64,000 nucleotides of DNA from contig BPHJ01000001.1 in the NCBI GenBank assembly GCA_026003475.1, positions 1,425,189 through 1,489,188 on the forward strand, written 5' to 3'. This document shows positions 18,137-26,064 of the stretch, piece by piece (position 1 is the stretch's first letter; each line of letters begins with the position of its first letter). Both the position numbers and the translations under genes were made by a program. The DNA comes from Candidatus Kapaibacterium sp. (GTDB lineage Bacteria; Bacteroidota; Ignavibacteria; Kapaibacteriales; NICIL-2). Under the pieces are notes generated by a model that searched no databases, was not told where the DNA came from, and saw only the letters and a list, made by a program, of their open reading frames with translations.

Positions 18137-19078
18137 ATGATTAGCTACGACCCAGCTACGATTGCCCATCCTCAACTGCATGGTATCCTGCTCAGTGGCG
18201 TTGCTCCCCGACCGATTGCGTTTGTTGCATCGCGCTCCACGGAAGGTGCGGTCAACCTTGCGCCATTTAGTTTTTTCAATGCCTTTGCCTCGAAGCCACC
18301 GGTTGTTGCCATTGGTCCAGCGGTCAGCGTGCGTTCCGGCAAGGTCAAGGATACCTGGCGTAATATTCTCGACACTGGCGAATGCACGATCAGCGCTGTT
18401 ACCTACGGCATTCTCCACCAGATGAACCTGGCAGCAGCCGAGTATCCTCATGGCACCGACGAATTCGTCAAAGCGGGCTTGACCAAAGCAGAAGCGGCAA
18501 CTGTCGGCGTTCCTTACGTGGCTGAATCCCCCTTCGCCATGGAATGCCGCCTGATCGAGAATATCGAACTGTTTCGCGAAGAAGGCGGCAACGGGAATCT
18601 GATGCTGCTCCGCGTGCACCGCATACACGTCAAGGAATCGGTGCTCACCGATGGGAAAATTGATCCGCGGAAAATGGATCTGGTCGCTCGGATGGGGTAT
18701 CACTGGTACGCTCGCGTTACCCCGGACGTGTGTTTCGAATTACCACAACCGGGCCCAAAGTGCGGGATTGGACTCGATGCGTTGCCCGAACCGATCCGGA
18801 GTTCACCCATCCTGACAGGAAACGAGCTTGGTTTGCTTGCCTCGGTGCTCAGCATGCCGCAGCGCGATCCGACGTTTGCCCAACCTCAGACCACAGCAGA
18901 TTTGCTCGAGCATGAATTGATCACAGGCAATGCGCGCGGTGCCCTGGATGCAGCACTCCGGCAGGGTTCGCCATCGGTCTGGACGCTACACCGCATCGCT
19001 CAAGCATTCCTGCGCCAAGGCGATGTCGCCAGCGCCTGGCAGACGCTGTATCTTGCACATCCGACAATTGCCCCGTAA
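18137..19078 (+). CDS. flavin reductase family protein with C-terminal extension
   Basis: A 313-aa protein. Residues 1-210 form an FMN-binding split barrel of the flavin reductase-like family: HGILLSGVAPRPIAFVASRS, VNLAPFSFFNAFASKPPVVA and GECTISAVTYGILHQMN are typical. The final 100 residues, including GNARGALDAALRQGSPSVWT and FLRQGDVASAWQTLY, look helical and TPR-like and are not part of the usual reductase. No electron-transfer partner is adjacent, so the physiological substrate is unknown. The start at 18137 fits both the family N-terminus and the promoter position. It is divergent from the peptide importer. Confidence 0.87.
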   Translation: MISYDPATIAHPQLHGILLSGVAPRPIAFVASRSTEGAVNLAPFSFFNAFASKPPVVAIGPAVSVRSGKVKDTWRNILDTGECTISAVTYGILHQMNLAAAEYPHGTDEFVKAGLTKAEAATVGVPYVAESPFAMECRLIENIELFREEGGNGNLMLLRVHRIHVKESVLTDGKIDPRKMDLVARMGYHWYARVTPDVCFELPQPGPKCGIGLDALPEPIRSSPILTGNELGLLASVLSMPQRDPTFAQPQTTADLLEHELITGNARGALDAALRQGSPSVWTLHRIAQAFLRQGDVASAWQTLYLAHPTIAP

Positions 19079-19133
19079 CATTCGAAGTATCGCTGCGTAT
19101 GCAGCACAGTAACGAACTATCATTCCGCAGCTA

Positions 19134-19829
19134 ATGCAGCGCTCGTCGTGGCTTGGTTTGATCTTGATTGCAGTCGGTACGATCTTCCTGCTCCATGCCG
19201 TTGGAATACTTCCGGAGCCAGGGTGGATAGTCAACTGGTGGCCGCTGCTTTTGATCGCCGCTGGAACGCGGATCATCCTGCGGAAACCAGACAACCTCAC
19301 AGGGGGACTGCTGGTGATTGCGCTGGGGTGTTTGCTCCTTGCAGACAATGTCATCGAAGGATTCGATTTCTGGGTTGCCGCTGTGCCCGTTCTGCTCATC
19401 GTCCTTGGCATCGGTATCATCCTGCGACCAGCGCGCCCTAAGGGAGTGCACCATACCGTTTCGGTTGCATTCGGCGGTCGCGAAGGTACCCTCACCGATG
19501 AACTCATCAACGCAACGGCACTGCTGGGCGGCATTCACTATACCGTGACGTCACAGCGCTTTCGGGGAGGCTCGGTGCAAACAATCTTCGGTGGCATCGA
19601 ATTGGATTTTCGTCCCGCACAGATGGCAGCAATGGAGGCATCGCTCGACGTCGAAACAATCTTTGGTGGTGTCGAAATTATCGTTCCTTCAGACTGGTCA
19701 GTCCTGGTCGAAGGCACACCCCTATTCGGCGGCATTGAAAGCAAGGTGTATCCTCGACCGACAACCGAGACTACCCCATTGTTGCGCATTCGGGCGACGG
19801 TAATCTTCGGAGGCATTTCGATCCGCTGA
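19134..19829 (+). CDS. LiaF/YvqF-like membrane protein (DUF5668 plus LiaF C-terminal domain)
   Basis: A 231-aa protein with four membrane helices in the first 100 residues (roughly 6-24, 33-50, 56-73 and 78-96) and a soluble beta-rich C-terminal domain. The C-terminal domain repeats a GGI motif: TIFGGIELDF, TIFGGVEIIVP, LFGGIESKVYP and VIFGGISIR. This is the LiaF (YvqF) domain, which in Bacillus restrains the LiaRS cell-envelope stress response. Here it precedes an ECF sigma factor and an anti-sigma-like gene on the same strand (58-bp gap), so a role in envelope-stress signalling is a reasonable inference, not shown. Confidence 0.85.
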   Translation: MQRSSWLGLILIAVGTIFLLHAVGILPEPGWIVNWWPLLLIAAGTRIILRKPDNLTGGLLVIALGCLLLADNVIEGFDFWVAAVPVLLIVLGIGIILRPARPKGVHHTVSVAFGGREGTLTDELINATALLGGIHYTVTSQRFRGGSVQTIFGGIELDFRPAQMAAMEASLDVETIFGGVEIIVPSDWSVLVEGTPLFGGIESKVYPRPTTETTPLLRIRATVIFGGISIR

Positions 19830-19887
19830 ATCAAATTCGCCCGCAAGCCGTTACTGCATGCGGTAGGACTGGCAGCTTCGCGAGGCC

Positions 19888-20487
19888 ATGGATCGAGACT
19901 ACGCACTGTTGGGCGACGGTGAACTCTACAGCCTGCTGACCCAACGGCAACACCGAGAACGCGCCTTTGCAGAAATTTACCGACGCTACAGCCATCGGGT
20001 TTTTGTCTATTGCCGCAAGATTCTCCAGAACACCAACGATGCAGAAGATGCCTTCCAGGACACCTTCCTGAAATTCCTCGATAGTGCCTCGGCCAGCCGT
20101 CAGATGACCAATCTCCCCGGCTACCTGCTAACGATCGCACGCAATTGCTGCATGGACATCCTCAACAAGCGGAGCCCGCACGTCGAACTGGTCGAAGAAC
20201 TCCATGGCGCATCCAACGACCACACGGTCGAACAAGACGAGCTCAACCACCTCATCACCATGGCGCTCGAGCTTTTGCCTCTCCACTGGCGCGAAGCCAT
20301 CGTACTCCAGCTCTACGCCGACATGAGCTACCAGGACATTGCCCACGTACTCGAAGTGCCCGTGACGACTGTCCGCAATTGGATTTGCCGCGGAAAACAG
20401 CGCCTGCGGGAAATCCTCCAGCCGTACTTCGATGAACACGATGTTGAATCCCCCGATAGCAGCAATGGAACAGTTGACCAATCGTGA
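19888..20487 (+). CDS. ECF-type RNA polymerase sigma factor
   Basis: A 199-aa sigma-70 family protein of ECF size. Region 2 spans FAEIYRRYSHRVFVYCRKIL through NDAEDAFQDTFLKFL (core-binding and -10 recognition), with LPGYLLTIARNCCMDILNKR after it. Region 4 has MALELLPLHWREAIVLQLYA, the helix-turn-helix MSYQDIAHVLEVPVTTVRNW and RGKQRLREIL. Its 3' end overlaps the 5' end of the anti-sigma-like gene, as expected for a sigma/anti-sigma pair. Target promoters are unknown. Confidence 0.94.
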   Translation: MDRDYALLGDGELYSLLTQRQHRERAFAEIYRRYSHRVFVYCRKILQNTNDAEDAFQDTFLKFLDSASASRQMTNLPGYLLTIARNCCMDILNKRSPHVELVEELHGASNDHTVEQDELNHLITMALELLPLHWREAIVLQLYADMSYQDIAHVLEVPVTTVRNWICRGKQRLREILQPYFDEHDVESPDSSNGTVDQS

Positions 20488-21637
20488 TCGCATTGACCTG
20501 TTCCTCGATGGTGCATTGCCAGCCGAAGAACGACCAGCCCTGTTTGCCGCACTGGCGTCGAGCGACGAACTTCAAGCGGAATTTTACCAAGCCTACACCA
20601 TCCGCATTGCTGCGCTTGGCCAGGCACAACACTTAGTCCCACCGCCGGCACTCACTGCTCGCATTTTAGCATCAGCGGCACCTCCGCAACCGGTAGCAAG
20701 CATTGCCAAGAGCCTCTGGCACAGCATCGCCGCACGCACGACGGTGGCTGTGGTCGGTGCGATTGTGATTGGATTTGTTACCGGTCGTCTTACTGCACCA
20801 CTTCCGGTCGAGCAGCATTCGGTCCAGTCAGCCTTCCGCTCAGCTCCAATCCACTCAAGCCCGATCCCTTCGGCAACAGTCGCTGCGCCACAAGCGGCGC
20901 CACGGAATTGGTCACACACACCATCCCGCGTTCCCGCAGCTCCAGTCACTGGGTCACCACTGGATACAGCATTGCATGCCGACGCATCCCGAGCATCGCC
21001 GATCACGCTCAGCACAGCCGAGCAGCTCCCCACACTCTTGGCGCGTCACAGTATGCTCGCCCCTCGAGCACCATCCATCGGTTCATCACCGCTACGCAAT
21101 ACCGCCCCGCTCTTCGAGACCTACACCGAAGCAGAGCAGACCAATCAGTTTGTCTTCGGCATTCGCCGAACAAGCACCGTCATGCTGCGCCAAGCCCAGC
21201 TTGTTCAACCAATCGCGAGCACACCGCTTGCTAATACGATTGCTTCGATCGAGTACCGACAGCGAAATGTGGGGATTGTCATCCAAGCTGGGCAGGAGCA
21301 ATTCCCGATTTTCCAGGTGCATCAATCCCCCACCGGAGTGCAATCCTACGTGCTCGAACAACAACTCTGGTGGATTGGTGCTGGTATGCGCGTCTATCTG
21401 CCACGGAGCGACGACAATCTCCTGCTCAGTTCGTTCCGTCCCGTTGCAGGCATCCTGCTGGGAACAAGTGCATATGGCGTGCTTGGGCGTGCAGAAATTG
21501 GAATAGTGTGGGAGTTACTTCCCCACGTAGGGGTTCAATGTTTGCTCGAAGGAATGGTGCATTCGCACGGCATCGGCTCGCAATGGGAGCACGCGGAAAA
21601 ACTCAGTGCAAGCATCGGATTAGCTGTTCGGTTCTGA
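20465..21637 (+). CDS. anti-sigma-like protein with single TM and C-terminal beta-barrel-like domain (dual-membrane-spanning candidate)
   Basis: A 390-aa protein. Numbering is from ATG 20465, which overlaps the sigma gene by 23 bp; ATG 20432 is also possible. Residues 1-85 are an anti-sigma-like cytoplasmic domain: DRIDLFLDGALPAEERPALF, then SSDELQAEFYQAYTIRI. There is one membrane helix (TTVAVVGAIVIGFVTG, 92-107), then an Ala/Pro/Ser/His-rich linker (108-225). The last 165 residues show alternating beta strands (ANTIASIEYRQRNVGIVIQA, LWWIGAGMRVYLP, RAEIGIVWELLPHVGVQCL) and end SASIGLAVRF, with the terminal Phe typical of outer-membrane barrels. This layout matches the dual membrane-spanning anti-sigma factors described in Bacteroides. 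It converges with the NFACT gene, and the 3' ends overlap by 18 bp. Confidence 0.75.
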   Translation: MEQLTNRDRIDLFLDGALPAEERPALFAALASSDELQAEFYQAYTIRIAALGQAQHLVPPPALTARILASAAPPQPVASIAKSLWHSIAARTTVAVVGAIVIGFVTGRLTAPLPVEQHSVQSAFRSAPIHSSPIPSATVAAPQAAPRNWSHTPSRVPAAPVTGSPLDTALHADASRASPITLSTAEQLPTLLARHSMLAPRAPSIGSSPLRNTAPLFETYTEAEQTNQFVFGIRRTSTVMLRQAQLVQPIASTPLANTIASIEYRQRNVGIVIQAGQEQFPIFQVHQSPTGVQSYVLEQQLWWIGAGMRVYLPRSDDNLLLSSFRPVAGILLGTSAYGVLGRAEIGIVWELLPHVGVQCLLEGMVHSHGIGSQWEHAEKLSASIGLAVRF

Positions 21638-23251
21638 TGGTGACCGCGGCTCGACGAAGACAACAGACTCACGGAGCAACGCCACAGCACCGGGTCCAGC
21701 CGCTTTGGGCTTGCGGACATACTTACGCTGCGTCCAGGAGACCGGAACATAGGAAGCCGTGCGTGCAGCCGAATAGTAGGCGACAATCGCTGCGGCGTGC
21801 TCAATGACCGCAGGTGGTGGTAGTTTGCGCGCTGGGAGTGGGATGACACCATGGGCTCCCTCGACACCGCGTGCATGCAGCCACAGATCATGCGGCCTGG
21901 CAATGCGGAATGTCAACTCGTCGTTACTTCGGGCATCCTTGCCGATGAGCAACCAGTATCCTCCCGGAAGTGCAACCGTGCGCAATCGCGATCGAGTCCA
22001 ATCGGAAAGCGGGCGCTGCTGCACTGGTTCTGGCTGCTTCGGATAGCATTGCTGCTCGATGGATTCGATCTGCTGGAGTGTCGCTGCGGACTGCACTTGC
22101 TCCATCGCAGCCTCGAGCGCAGCTTTTCGCGTTTCCAATTGATGCCGACGTTCCCGTGCGCGTTCTGCACCGCGACGCATCTTCCGTGCTTGGGCAAAGT
22201 AGCGTTCTGCATTGTCGAGCACGGTGCGAGCAGGGTCGAGAGGAATAACCTGCTGCTGGCCATCCCAGCCAGTTACGCTCAGTTCTTCGAATCCTCGGTG
22301 ATGGCGCTGCGGGTGTGAAATGAGCAGATGTCCCCATTGCTCATAGCGCTCCGCAGCAGGTGCATCGGCAATCGTAGCCTCCAGCTCCGGGAGTGCATTG
22401 GCAATATGGCGTAGCTCGGTTGCAATGCGCTGCGCAAGATGGCGGCGGGCACAATCGAGCGTCCACGCACGGTAGAGCGACCGTACACGCCGCAGGATGC
22501 CTTCCTCCACTGTTGGAACGTGCTCGTAGCGCCAATCGTCACCGCTTGGTGGACAGAGGAAGAACTGCTCCCGCTCGCCCTGGTGGGCAATCACTGGGTG
22601 CGGTGCAGTGATCAGTTGATGGCGATACTTCTGGGCCAGCTTGATGATGCGCTCCCTATCGGCGGAGTCGAAGCTACCCCATGCGGCTGTTGGCTCGACG
22701 TTGTGCAACTGGCAGAAATCCTGTGCATACGGTTGGGCAAGAAGCAACCGACTCCGTTCGAGCACTGCAGCTACGCTCATCTCCTCTGCGCACTCCAACG
22801 GCTCTGGCAGCGTAACTGGCGGTGGCTCCCATCGCGCGCCAATGCTCAGACCAGCCATCGGTCGGAGCGACGCAATCACAACACCATCATCACGCCGACG
22901 CACCACACAGTTCGCCCATGCCCCAGGGATCGCAACGACGACCAGCTCGACATCATCGAGAACGAAGGTAACAACACGATTGGCATCGGCAATTGTACTA
23001 TCCTCGATCGGTTTCATCGCAAGCATCGCGAAAACGTGATCGCGTTGGCGTGGTGGGTCTGAACGCCGAACGTAGAGTGTCCCGATTGGCTGTTGCGGAG
23101 CATGAATAACGGCAAGCCTCCCTGCATGCGTTTCAAGGGAGAACCACACTTGACCGCCATTGGTCCGGGCGCATTCAACCAGCACAGCGCCACGTATCTC
23201 CGATCGGAGCTGCTCGATGAGTGCAGCAAGTGTAGTCCAATGGCGGATCAT
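21620..23251 (-). CDS. NFACT family protein (RqcH/FbpA-like)
   Basis: A 543-aa NFACT protein. Relatives (bacterial RqcH, eukaryotic Rqc2) bind the large ribosomal subunit and add C-terminal alanine tails to stalled nascent chains. The N-terminal NFACT-N region includes GAVLVECARTNGGQVWFSLE. A central coiled-coil lies around ARKMRRGAERARERRHQLE. The C-terminal NFACT-R domain (DUF814) contains FRIARPHDLWLHARGVEGAH, PPAVIEHAAAIVAYYSAAR and VPVSWTQRKYVRKPKAAGPG. At the position I align with the Asp-Arg motif of B. subtilis RqcH the sequence reads NR (ADANRVVTFVL). The start at 23251 overlaps the upstream stop by 4 bp. Quality-control activity is inferred only. Confidence 0.88.
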   Translation of the reverse strand: MIRHWTTLAALIEQLRSEIRGAVLVECARTNGGQVWFSLETHAGRLAVIHAPQQPIGTLYVRRSDPPRQRDHVFAMLAMKPIEDSTIADANRVVTFVLDDVELVVVAIPGAWANCVVRRRDDGVVIASLRPMAGLSIGARWEPPPVTLPEPLECAEEMSVAAVLERSRLLLAQPYAQDFCQLHNVEPTAAWGSFDSADRERIIKLAQKYRHQLITAPHPVIAHQGEREQFFLCPPSGDDWRYEHVPTVEEGILRRVRSLYRAWTLDCARRHLAQRIATELRHIANALPELEATIADAPAAERYEQWGHLLISHPQRHHRGFEELSVTGWDGQQQVIPLDPARTVLDNAERYFAQARKMRRGAERARERRHQLETRKAALEAAMEQVQSAATLQQIESIEQQCYPKQPEPVQQRPLSDWTRSRLRTVALPGGYWLLIGKDARSNDELTFRIARPHDLWLHARGVEGAHGVIPLPARKLPPPAVIEHAAAIVAYYSAARTASYVPVSWTQRKYVRKPKAAGPGAVALLRESVVFVEPRSPSEPNS

Positions 23252-26064
23252 CGTCCGGGCAACCGAACGCGTTCGGGTGGGACCAACGTTGTGCAGGGAA
23301 GATATGCCAGAAGTTGCTTGATTTCTTGAGCGAGCGCCGGATTGGATTCCCGCATCGCCAGCGCTGCAAGCTTGCACTGCAACGGCGAACCAGCAAGGGC
23401 ACGGTAGCAAGTCGCACGGACTGCCGGTGGCTGCTGGAGTATTGCACGCTCTAAGTCCTGCCACTGGGTAGCAAAGGTGCTGCCTGAAGAATCCAGCGCA
23501 GCAAGACAGAGCGCCACCGACCGACGAGGAACATCACCGGGTGCATCGCGGAGGAGTGCCGCCAATGTCGCAGGATGCCATGCATCGCTCTGGCGGAGAC
23601 CGAGCACCGCACTTGTTCGCACGATCGAAGAAGTGTCGCGCAGGAAACGCAGCAACTGCGAGCGTGCTGCCATGCCCTCCACTGCTGCAAGTGCAAACGC
23701 TGCACGTGCACGCACCCATGCATGTTCATCTTGCACAAGCGACGGTAAGCGTTGACTCGAGCGGCGGAATTTGCCTTCGCCGATTTGTTGTGCTGCCGCC
23801 GAACGAATACGCCAATCGGGATGCCGAAGGTAGGTGGCAACAGAATCTGCAAGCAGTTCGACGCGACATTTCCCGATCGCCCATAGGCAGAACAGCGTCG
23901 TACTGTTCTGCTTCGATCGGAGTGAATCGGCAAGGAGCTGTGTGACAGCAACGGAATCCTTCCTAAAGAGGCGAGGAATGATATCCTCCAACGCTAAGCG
24001 CTCGCGCGGATAGGTGGTCCCAAGCTTGGTTGCAAGGAAACCGAGTGCTGCGGCGCCACGTTCGACGATTGCAGAACGTGCCGGCGCGACCAAATACTGG
24101 TACTTCTGCGGCGCAGTGCTGGCAAGGACAAACAAACTATCGAATGAACCAGGAAGCACCAGTTGCGCTACCGGTGGTCGTTCCGATGCTGTGGTGCTGC
24201 TGAGACTGTCGTCTCCTTTATCGAACGCAATACCGAAGGTGGATTTGATGAGTGATGTACCGTTACCACGCACCAGCGCATACCGATCCTGGCCACCACC
24301 ATCGGCAAAGATGCCAACCATCGGTAAGCCACGGCGCAAGTCAGAAAATCCACGTGTGTTATTCTCGTTCCGAGCAACGTAGCAATCGTCGCCGTGCCGG
24401 TCAACGAAGATGCTGACAGCATTGGCATTGCCACCACCTTGCGAGAGCGATTCTGCGCAGTATGCATCGTCGCCCATCGAATCGAGGAGCAGACCAACGC
24501 CGACATCGTGACCGCATCCTTGCGAGACGCCTCGAGCAGCGTAGATATCGTTGCCGCTTCGGTCCCAGAGAAATCCATGCGCAAAGTGGATACCTGCTCC
24601 CTGTGCATACTGGTATGCCAGGTACCGATCTTCCCCTTCGCGATCATCGAGCAGACCAATTCCGAACCAGTAGGCTGTTCCCTGTCCGTAGATATCGCTG
24701 GTGTACACATCGTTACCAGCACGATCGCTGAGCAAGGCGATACCACCGCTGGCAATCGGACGGTAGCCAAGCGCTGCACCCTGGGTGAACGCCAAGTAAT
24801 GCGAATCATAGCGGAGCACATCAACGAACGGACTGGCAGTTGTGTAGTGATCATTTCCGCTCTCATCGCAGAGGATAGCGACGCCACGGGTTGCCGCAAA
24901 TGCTTGTCCATGGGCATAGGCCGTGTACTGATCGTTCCCGGCGTGGTCAAGCAATGCCCCGATTCCGAATGCAGCAGCAGCTTGCGTGCAAACACCGCCG
25001 CTGTAGGAATCGCTTCCCTGCCAATCCCGCACGATACCGAAACCCCACAGACCGCTTCCGAGCGAGAAGTTTCCTCCACGGTAGATGTCGTCGCCAGCAA
25101 GGTCGGCAAGGATACCGCAACCAGCAATACCAGCACCGAGAGTGTAATCCCCGCCCACGTAGAGGTCGTTGCCAGCAAGATCAATGATTACCTGCACACC
25201 ACGGCTGAACGCACGCTCCTTGGTTGTCGTTAGAAAGTACGCATCGTTGCCACCAACATCGAAGATGAACACATAGTCGCCGCGATAGACGTTGTCTTCC
25301 GGGCCACCGATCGCACAACGACCAAGTGGGGTTTCCCATTCGATGGTACGAATGCTATCGCGAAGCAATCGGTGGGCATCGCGTGTGCGTTCAAGCGTGG
25401 TCACGATCTGAGCATACAGCTTGAGTGCTTCGTTGAGCAGAGGGCCAAGGTCAACAAGGTGTGCTTGCTCGAAGTAGAGCCTTGCAATCGAATCGCTCCG
25501 CAACTCGGCAGCCTTGAGTTGGTAAGGATCAGCGTGCTCATCCTCAGCTGAGAGCAACCAGAGTGAATCACTCTGCGCAAAGAGAACAGGATGAGTGCGC
25601 AGCAGTTTCCTGGTGTTGTTGCTGGCATGCAGGAATGCAGCCACGGGAGCAAGGTATTGCTGGACGATGCTCTGATACACCAGCGATGTTCGCAGCAGCA
25701 GCGAATCCGGTTGTCGCATTGGAAAGTAGGTCCAGCCATCGGATGTCGCCACACTCGTGGTAGGTTGATACCCACATTCTTGCACCAACGATGCAAGTGC
25801 GGCAGCATCGTCGGCTGTCCGAAGTTTATCGGCGTAGCGATTGAAGCGTTCTGCGGCATCAACAAGCGCAAAGGGATCAGCAAAGACGCGCTCAACTGCC
25901 CCGAGACGATGCTTGTCTCGACTTGTCATGTCGCTGGGCAAAGCAAGATCGCTCCACCGCATGCCAAGCCGTTCTAACGCTTGATCAACAAGTTCCCGCG
26001 CTGACTGTGCGGTCGCGCATGTTGTTCCTATCACCAGCAATAGAAGCACAAGCGGTCTCATCAC
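23248..26064 (-). CDS. exported GxDxY-repeat solenoid protein with C-terminal HEAT repeats
   Basis: A 938-aa protein with a clear signal peptide (MMRPLVLLLLVIGTTCATAQ). After a helical N-terminal region (about 25-240), residues 271-596 hold twelve G-(N/D/S/E)-D-x-Y units, such as AGNDLY, AGDDIY, SGNDHY, EGEDRY and MGDDAY. They are spaced 26-27 residues apart, each followed by a G-rich strand like GAGIAGCGILADL or FGIGLLDD. A 47-residue gap separates the first six from the rest. This predicts a regular beta solenoid. Residues about 690-920 are HEAT-like helical repeats (PDWRIRSAAAQQIGEGKF, EHAWVRARAAFALAAVEG, SSIVRTSAVLGLRQSD). No enzyme motif is seen and the function is unknown. It starts directly after ribD and overlaps the NFACT gene by 4 bp. 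Confidence 0.85.
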   Translation of the reverse strand: MMRPLVLLLLVIGTTCATAQSARELVDQALERLGMRWSDLALPSDMTSRDKHRLGAVERVFADPFALVDAAERFNRYADKLRTADDAAALASLVQECGYQPTTSVATSDGWTYFPMRQPDSLLLRTSLVYQSIVQQYLAPVAAFLHASNNTRKLLRTHPVLFAQSDSLWLLSAEDEHADPYQLKAAELRSDSIARLYFEQAHLVDLGPLLNEALKLYAQIVTTLERTRDAHRLLRDSIRTIEWETPLGRCAIGGPEDNVYRGDYVFIFDVGGNDAYFLTTTKERAFSRGVQVIIDLAGNDLYVGGDYTLGAGIAGCGILADLAGDDIYRGGNFSLGSGLWGFGIVRDWQGSDSYSGGVCTQAAAAFGIGALLDHAGNDQYTAYAHGQAFAATRGVAILCDESGNDHYTTASPFVDVLRYDSHYLAFTQGAALGYRPIASGGIALLSDRAGNDVYTSDIYGQGTAYWFGIGLLDDREGEDRYLAYQYAQGAGIHFAHGFLWDRSGNDIYAARGVSQGCGHDVGVGLLLDSMGDDAYCAESLSQGGGNANAVSIFVDRHGDDCYVARNENNTRGFSDLRRGLPMVGIFADGGGQDRYALVRGNGTSLIKSTFGIAFDKGDDSLSSTTASERPPVAQLVLPGSFDSLFVLASTAPQKYQYLVAPARSAIVERGAAALGFLATKLGTTYPRERLALEDIIPRLFRKDSVAVTQLLADSLRSKQNSTTLFCLWAIGKCRVELLADSVATYLRHPDWRIRSAAAQQIGEGKFRRSSQRLPSLVQDEHAWVRARAAFALAAVEGMAARSQLLRFLRDTSSIVRTSAVLGLRQSDAWHPATLAALLRDAPGDVPRRSVALCLAALDSSGSTFATQWQDLERAILQQPPAVRATCYRALAGSPLQCKLAALAMRESNPALAQEIKQLLAYLPCTTLVPPERVRLPGR
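24277..25254 (-). repeat. coding repeat array, twelve GxDxY units of about 78-81 bp
   Basis: At protein level twelve GxDxY motifs fall at residues 271, 297, 323, 349, 375, 402, 449, 476, 503, 530, 557 and 591 of the 938-aa gene product. The units are diverged at DNA level, which points to an old, selected array rather than a recent tandem duplication. Confidence 0.8.

Follow-up and report, generated by a model that had tools for sequence, protein, structure and literature searches.

We describe in Candidatus Kapaibacterium sp., assigned to Bacteroidota by NCBI, an ECF sigma factor gene followed by the gene of an anti-sigma-like protein, and we consider it probable that the two products form a sigma/anti-sigma switch in which the anti-sigma factor spans both membranes and frees the sigma factor when its C-terminal barrel is unassembled or disturbed. 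The pair is preceded by a gene for a LiaF-like membrane protein in the window, i.e. the whole stretch of 64,000 nucleotides analysed here.

19134 to 19829, + strand: LiaF-like membrane protein, 231 aa (Pfam LiaF-TM and LiaF-like_C), a genus-level companion of the pair
19888 to 20487, + strand: putative cognate ECF sigma factor, 199 aa (Pfam), the 3' end of the gene overlapping the anti-sigma start
20465 to 21637, + strand: anti-sigma-like protein predicted to be dual membrane-spanning, 390 aa (ORF, homologue alignment, AlphaFold, order-wide homologues)

The sigma gene product matches Pfam Sigma70_r2 and Sigma70_r4_2 over their cut-offs. The frame of the anti-sigma-like gene is open from 20432, and we assign a length of 390 residues to its product because in the alignment its homologues start at the ATG of position 20465. 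Within a sample of the order, the ECF sigma gene lies directly 5' of the anti-sigma-like gene in 42 distinct full-length pairs, and sigma and anti-sigma distances are correlated (0.83, mirror-tree), a correlation such as common descent alone could produce. The initial annotation had read the gene after the ECF sigma gene as an anti-sigma-like segment, one membrane helix, a linker and a beta domain ending in Phe, and we find all of these parts in the following order. Elsewhere in the window, positions 23251-26064 on the - strand encode a 938-residue protein with many repeats of the G-x-D-x-Y type, by impression from the sequence, and C-terminal HEAT repeats.

20465 to 20680, + strand: N-terminal helical anti-sigma-like domain, residues 1-72 (NF052375, AlphaFold helices, kept in 42 pairs)
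20732 to 20791, + strand: predicted inner-membrane helix, residues 90-109 (AlphaFold helix of low pLDDT, hydropathy, homologues)
20795 to 21136, + strand: predicted disordered Ala/Pro/Ser-rich periplasmic tether, residues 111-224 (pLDDT about 30, drift, length)
21143 to 21634, + strand: predicted eight-strand outer-membrane-type beta-barrel, residues 227-390 (AlphaFold, VIA, face pattern)
21611 to 21634, + strand: C-terminal beta-signal-like motif SIGLAVRF, residues 383-390 (pattern count in homologues)

The protein belongs to a family that is distributed throughout the order. At a threshold of E 1e-6 or better, the family profile is matched in 61 of 61 Kapabacterial genomes and in all 27 of 27 genera with 1-22 matches per genome, some matches being fragments of a single gene or proteins limited to the N-terminal part. 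The architecture is beyond chance since full-length homologues reaching down to about 20% identity span the order. The window's own genome has two more full-length copies, each adjoining a sigma gene; beyond the order, further families of the class contain similar chains with weaker barrel matches. The architecture proposed in the initial annotation stands, but the locus is one member of a multi-copy, order-wide family and not a notable system by itself. An unusually large repertoire is found in one genome of 7.9 Mb (G022), having 22 family matches of which about 18 are full length.

The N-terminal domain forms four helices in the full-chain AlphaFold model (residues 6-14, 20-32, 34-56 and 61-71). 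The NCBIfam model NF052375, 'anti-sigma factor', matches residues 16-126 with an E-value of 4.8e-8 and 33 bits, which is below its curated cut-off of 100, and zf-HC2 and RseA_N give weak matches to the domain. Short anti-sigma-like proteins that lack a barrel and are encoded next to ECF sigma genes in other members of the phylum contain related domains, and RseA/RskA-like one-membrane anti-sigma factors likewise have an N-terminal anti-sigma domain but no barrel. Hydropathy reaches 1.95 at residues 88-106, suggesting one membrane helix, and the hydrophobic segment is kept in 42/42 full-length homologues. A sequence search of solved structures returned chance-level matches and no true relative of the anti-sigma-like protein.

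The two-membrane anti-sigma architecture is already known from Bacteroides Dma. In the Bacteroides thetaiotaomicron systems Dma1/Dma2 with Das1/Das2, an anti-sigma domain, a helix, a disordered tether and a C-terminal barrel are encoded beside an ECF21 sigma gene (PMC13088901). A member of the Dma family would further be expected to bind and inhibit its sigma factor and to raise vesiculation when lost. As judged from sequence and structure prediction, the Kapabacterial protein fits this architecture in all four parts, i.e. an N-terminal putative sigma-binding domain, one helix, a long disordered tether and a C-terminal barrel, next to a neighbouring ECF sigma gene, so that the likeness to the dual membrane-spanning anti-sigma factors of Bacteroides claimed in the initial annotation holds part for part. 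The Kapabacterial family differs from Dma in its lineage, its longer N-terminal module and its multiplicity of up to 22 matches per genome. A further comparable system, likened here by description and not by sequence, is the envelope-stress sigma/anti-sigma pair M0N98_03761/03760 of Phocaeicola vulgatus, in which the anti-sigma gene likewise lies 3' of the sigma gene and a barrel in the outer membrane is predicted at the anti-sigma C-terminus (PMC9308784). The known inducer of the Phocaeicola pair is the antibacterial protein BcpT (PMC9308784).

Whether Kapabacterial and Bacteroidales proteins share one origin was approached with a set of 26 Bacteroidales Dma-type proteins, taken from a sample of the phylum and chosen by architecture and NigD linkage and not as named Dma1/2. 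The N-terminal modules of the two groups show no similarity by hhalign (probability about 0.1), with which deep homology is still compatible, and the barrel profiles give a short generic match only. The Bacteroidales module comprises just about 45-50 residues before the helix, and a Bacteroidales Dma-type protein used as query retrieved nothing significant from Kapabacteria and relatives. In the sigma tree, a grouping of the Kapabacterial sigma factors with the partners of the Bacteroidales Dma-type proteins in a single clade is neither supported nor rejected (p-AU 0.437). The lack of N-terminal similarity implies that independent assembly or very deep divergence may apply, and together with the sigma tree pointing neither way it leads us to call the proteins Dma-like, be they one family or two inventions. 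That the Kapabacterial protein is a true Dma orthologue diverged past sequence recognition, a reading concerning the origin and not the mechanism, draws on the same domain order and operon logic and on the sigma tree not rejecting one clade; set against the unmatched and differently sized N-terminal modules and the generic barrel match, we regard it as conceivable but somewhat doubtful. We give slightly less than even odds to a two-membrane anti-sigma factor having been invented more than once in the phylum: a classical anti-sigma domain and an outer-membrane barrel would have been joined in Kapabacteria independently of Dma, and the fusion would subsequently have expanded into a set of sensors spread over the whole lineage, up to about 20 of them in a genome, whose surface loops and promoters differ from group to group. 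The order-wide multi-copy spread and an anti-sigma module devoid of detectable similarity to Bacteroidales Dma are what is new here beyond the initial annotation.

The C-terminal domain is predicted by AlphaFold to form exactly eight strands between residues 227 and 389 in the full chain (nine aligned rows), the final residue being Phe390, and the same eight strands when modelled alone (mean pLDDT 86.4, pTM 0.80), the barrel model being built on 8 or 9 aligned rows. The top structural matches in VIA are NspA, OprF, OmpA and OmpW with Z 14-17. The two predictions, on the isolated domain and on the whole protein, had been proposed in the initial annotation, and both yielded an eight-strand barrel of the OmpA/NspA/OprF type; the structural outcomes it had named as contradicting its reading, no barrel or a soluble periplasmic fold, are not what AlphaFold and structural comparison returned. 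In an alignment of 21 diverse homologues, hydrophobic and polar faces alternate in most barrel strands, weakly in strand 4, and conserved charges (R234, E278, R309, R342, E362 and K379) lie on the polar face, position 362 being acidic in 21/21. The outer-membrane-protein beta-signal has the C-terminal consensus polar-x-G-x-x-hydrophobic-x-hydrophobic, and a beta-signal-like end of this pattern is present in 34 of 42 full-length homologues compared to 10.6% of ORFs of at least 150 residues in the homologue loci. The even strand count would place both barrel ends on the periplasmic side, as the tether to the inner membrane requires. Eight strands, a hydrophobic outside and a C-terminal targeting-like signal, as read from model and alignment, assign the domain to the OmpA-like barrels; the Kapabacterial barrel shares the predicted fold of OmpA, OprF and NspA, but is joined via an inner-membrane helix to a cytoplasmic regulator.

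Soluble eight-strand barrels, the designed BB1 (6d0t) and PsbO, also align to the model, allowing a reading according to which the domain is a soluble periplasmic barrel sensor and the protein a conventional anti-sigma factor that crosses one membrane and binds a ligand through its periplasmic domain. We judge this improbable: the soluble barrels score lower (Z about 10-11) than the outer-membrane barrels, the hydrophobic outer face, the inner charges and the beta-signal-like C-terminus argue against it, and every homologue keeps a tether of 109 residues or more, which a domain residing in the periplasm would not need.

The last barrel hairpin contains the stretch VHSH..G..WEHAEKL (window positions 21542-21604, residues 360-380), which is invariant in all five genus members and was not seen in other groups of the family in the homologue alignment; residues 355-390 are 79% identical within the genus. 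The stretch is a possible candidate for a surface ligand or metal site, and a metal- or pH-sensing role would be speculation.

The tether comprises 114 residues, among them 20 Ala, 17 Pro, 16 Ser and just 5 His, so that the length of about 115 residues and the Ala/Pro/Ser-richness given earlier for the linker are borne out and its being rich in His is not. It falls into a low-confidence region of the full-chain AlphaFold model (residues 71-224), and its length ranges from 109 to 200 aa across the 42 full-length homologues. Within the genus, the tether is 25% identical compared to 63% for the N-terminal domain and 63% for the barrel, suggesting that it is a spacer kept for length and not for sequence. 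A chain cut after synthesis into a free outer-membrane barrel and a separate inner-membrane anti-sigma factor, with no steady-state link between the two membranes, would suit a long, fast-drifting tether and a genome encoding an M50 site-2 protease, but is very unlikely in our view given that the tether alignment of the homologues shows no conserved cleavage-like motif and that the fusion is retained in 42/42 pairs, never being split into two genes.

Two ECF-like promoters, one before the sigma gene and one before liaF, were identified on the basis of conserved patterns.

19827 to 19852, + strand: candidate ECF-like promoter P2 before the sigma gene, TGAATCA...CGTT
19075 to 19099, + strand: candidate ECF-like promoter P1 before liaF, GTAAC-N16-CGTA

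ECF promoters have core elements AAC at -35 and CGT at -10. The P2 pattern GAATC-N16/17-CGTT is kept in 5/5 species while the spacer diverges and has one match in the window, 0.15 being expected. P1 has the same spacing in 4/4 species, one of them reading GCAAC. A second ECF-like type, GTAAC-N16-xGTT(A), is located about 37 bases 5' of the sigma start in most members of another family group, composed of paralogous pairs (loci L007, L013, L020, L027, L054, L055, L057 and L059). No promoters of the sigma-70 type were found within the locus. The ECF-like promoters suggest autoregulation of the sigma/anti-sigma pair. On the 5' side liaF is adjoined by a flavin reductase-like gene (18137-19075, + strand), the stop codon of which overlaps the -35-like element of P1.

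In the search for a wider P2 regulon, TGAATCA-N15/16-CGTT matched a single further site of the genome, which is kept in three relatives and was rejected because it lies antisense inside a conserved coding gene. GTAAC-N16-CGTA has 9 matches in the window's genome versus 53 for the reversed control, making it about six-fold rarer, and since the liaF site alone is shared we do not claim a wider P1 regulon. All nine matches, P1 and eight others, are on one strand.

The LiaF-like protein matches Pfam LiaF-TM (5.8e-17) and LiaF-like_C (8.6e-9), both over cut-off, and NCBIfam LiaF_C_term below its own cut-off. The gene adjoins the pair in 5/5 genus loci with flanking sequence and in none outside the window's genus; a LiaF-like gene is present before the pair as annotated initially, and the three-gene order is found within the genus but not elsewhere.

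In the sigma/anti-sigma switch that we favor, residues 1-72 would, in the absence of stress, retain the ECF sigma factor on the cytoplasmic side of the inner membrane, the single helix would cross the inner membrane, the disordered tether of about 114 residues would cross the periplasm, and the C-terminal barrel would be placed in the outer membrane by the Omp85 machinery. A barrel that is unassembled or disturbed at the surface may expose the chain to proteolysis; the tether or the helix would probably be cut and an RseP-type M50 protease would free the cytoplasmic part together with the sigma factor, which may then transcribe its own operon, and in the window's genus also liaF, from the ECF-like promoters. 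The sequences themselves establish the order of genes and domains and the conservation of family and promoters, barrel fold and topology are predicted, and we infer outer-membrane insertion, sigma binding, proteolytic release and the disturbed barrel as the signal. Genes for Omp85 and an M50 site-2 protease are present, permitting but not proving this mechanism; to our knowledge M50 proteases are nearly universal, for which reason the M50 gene lends weak support to cleavage.

Most envelope-stress systems pass outer-membrane signals via several proteins, while here one chain would link the cell surface to transcription. The family is present in every searched genome of an order dominated by uncultured members, has multiplied to many copies and carries another anti-sigma module. 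This suggests Dma being a more general design and no longer a peculiarity of Bacteroides, and the Kapabacterial copies would provide natural variants for finding out what the barrel senses.
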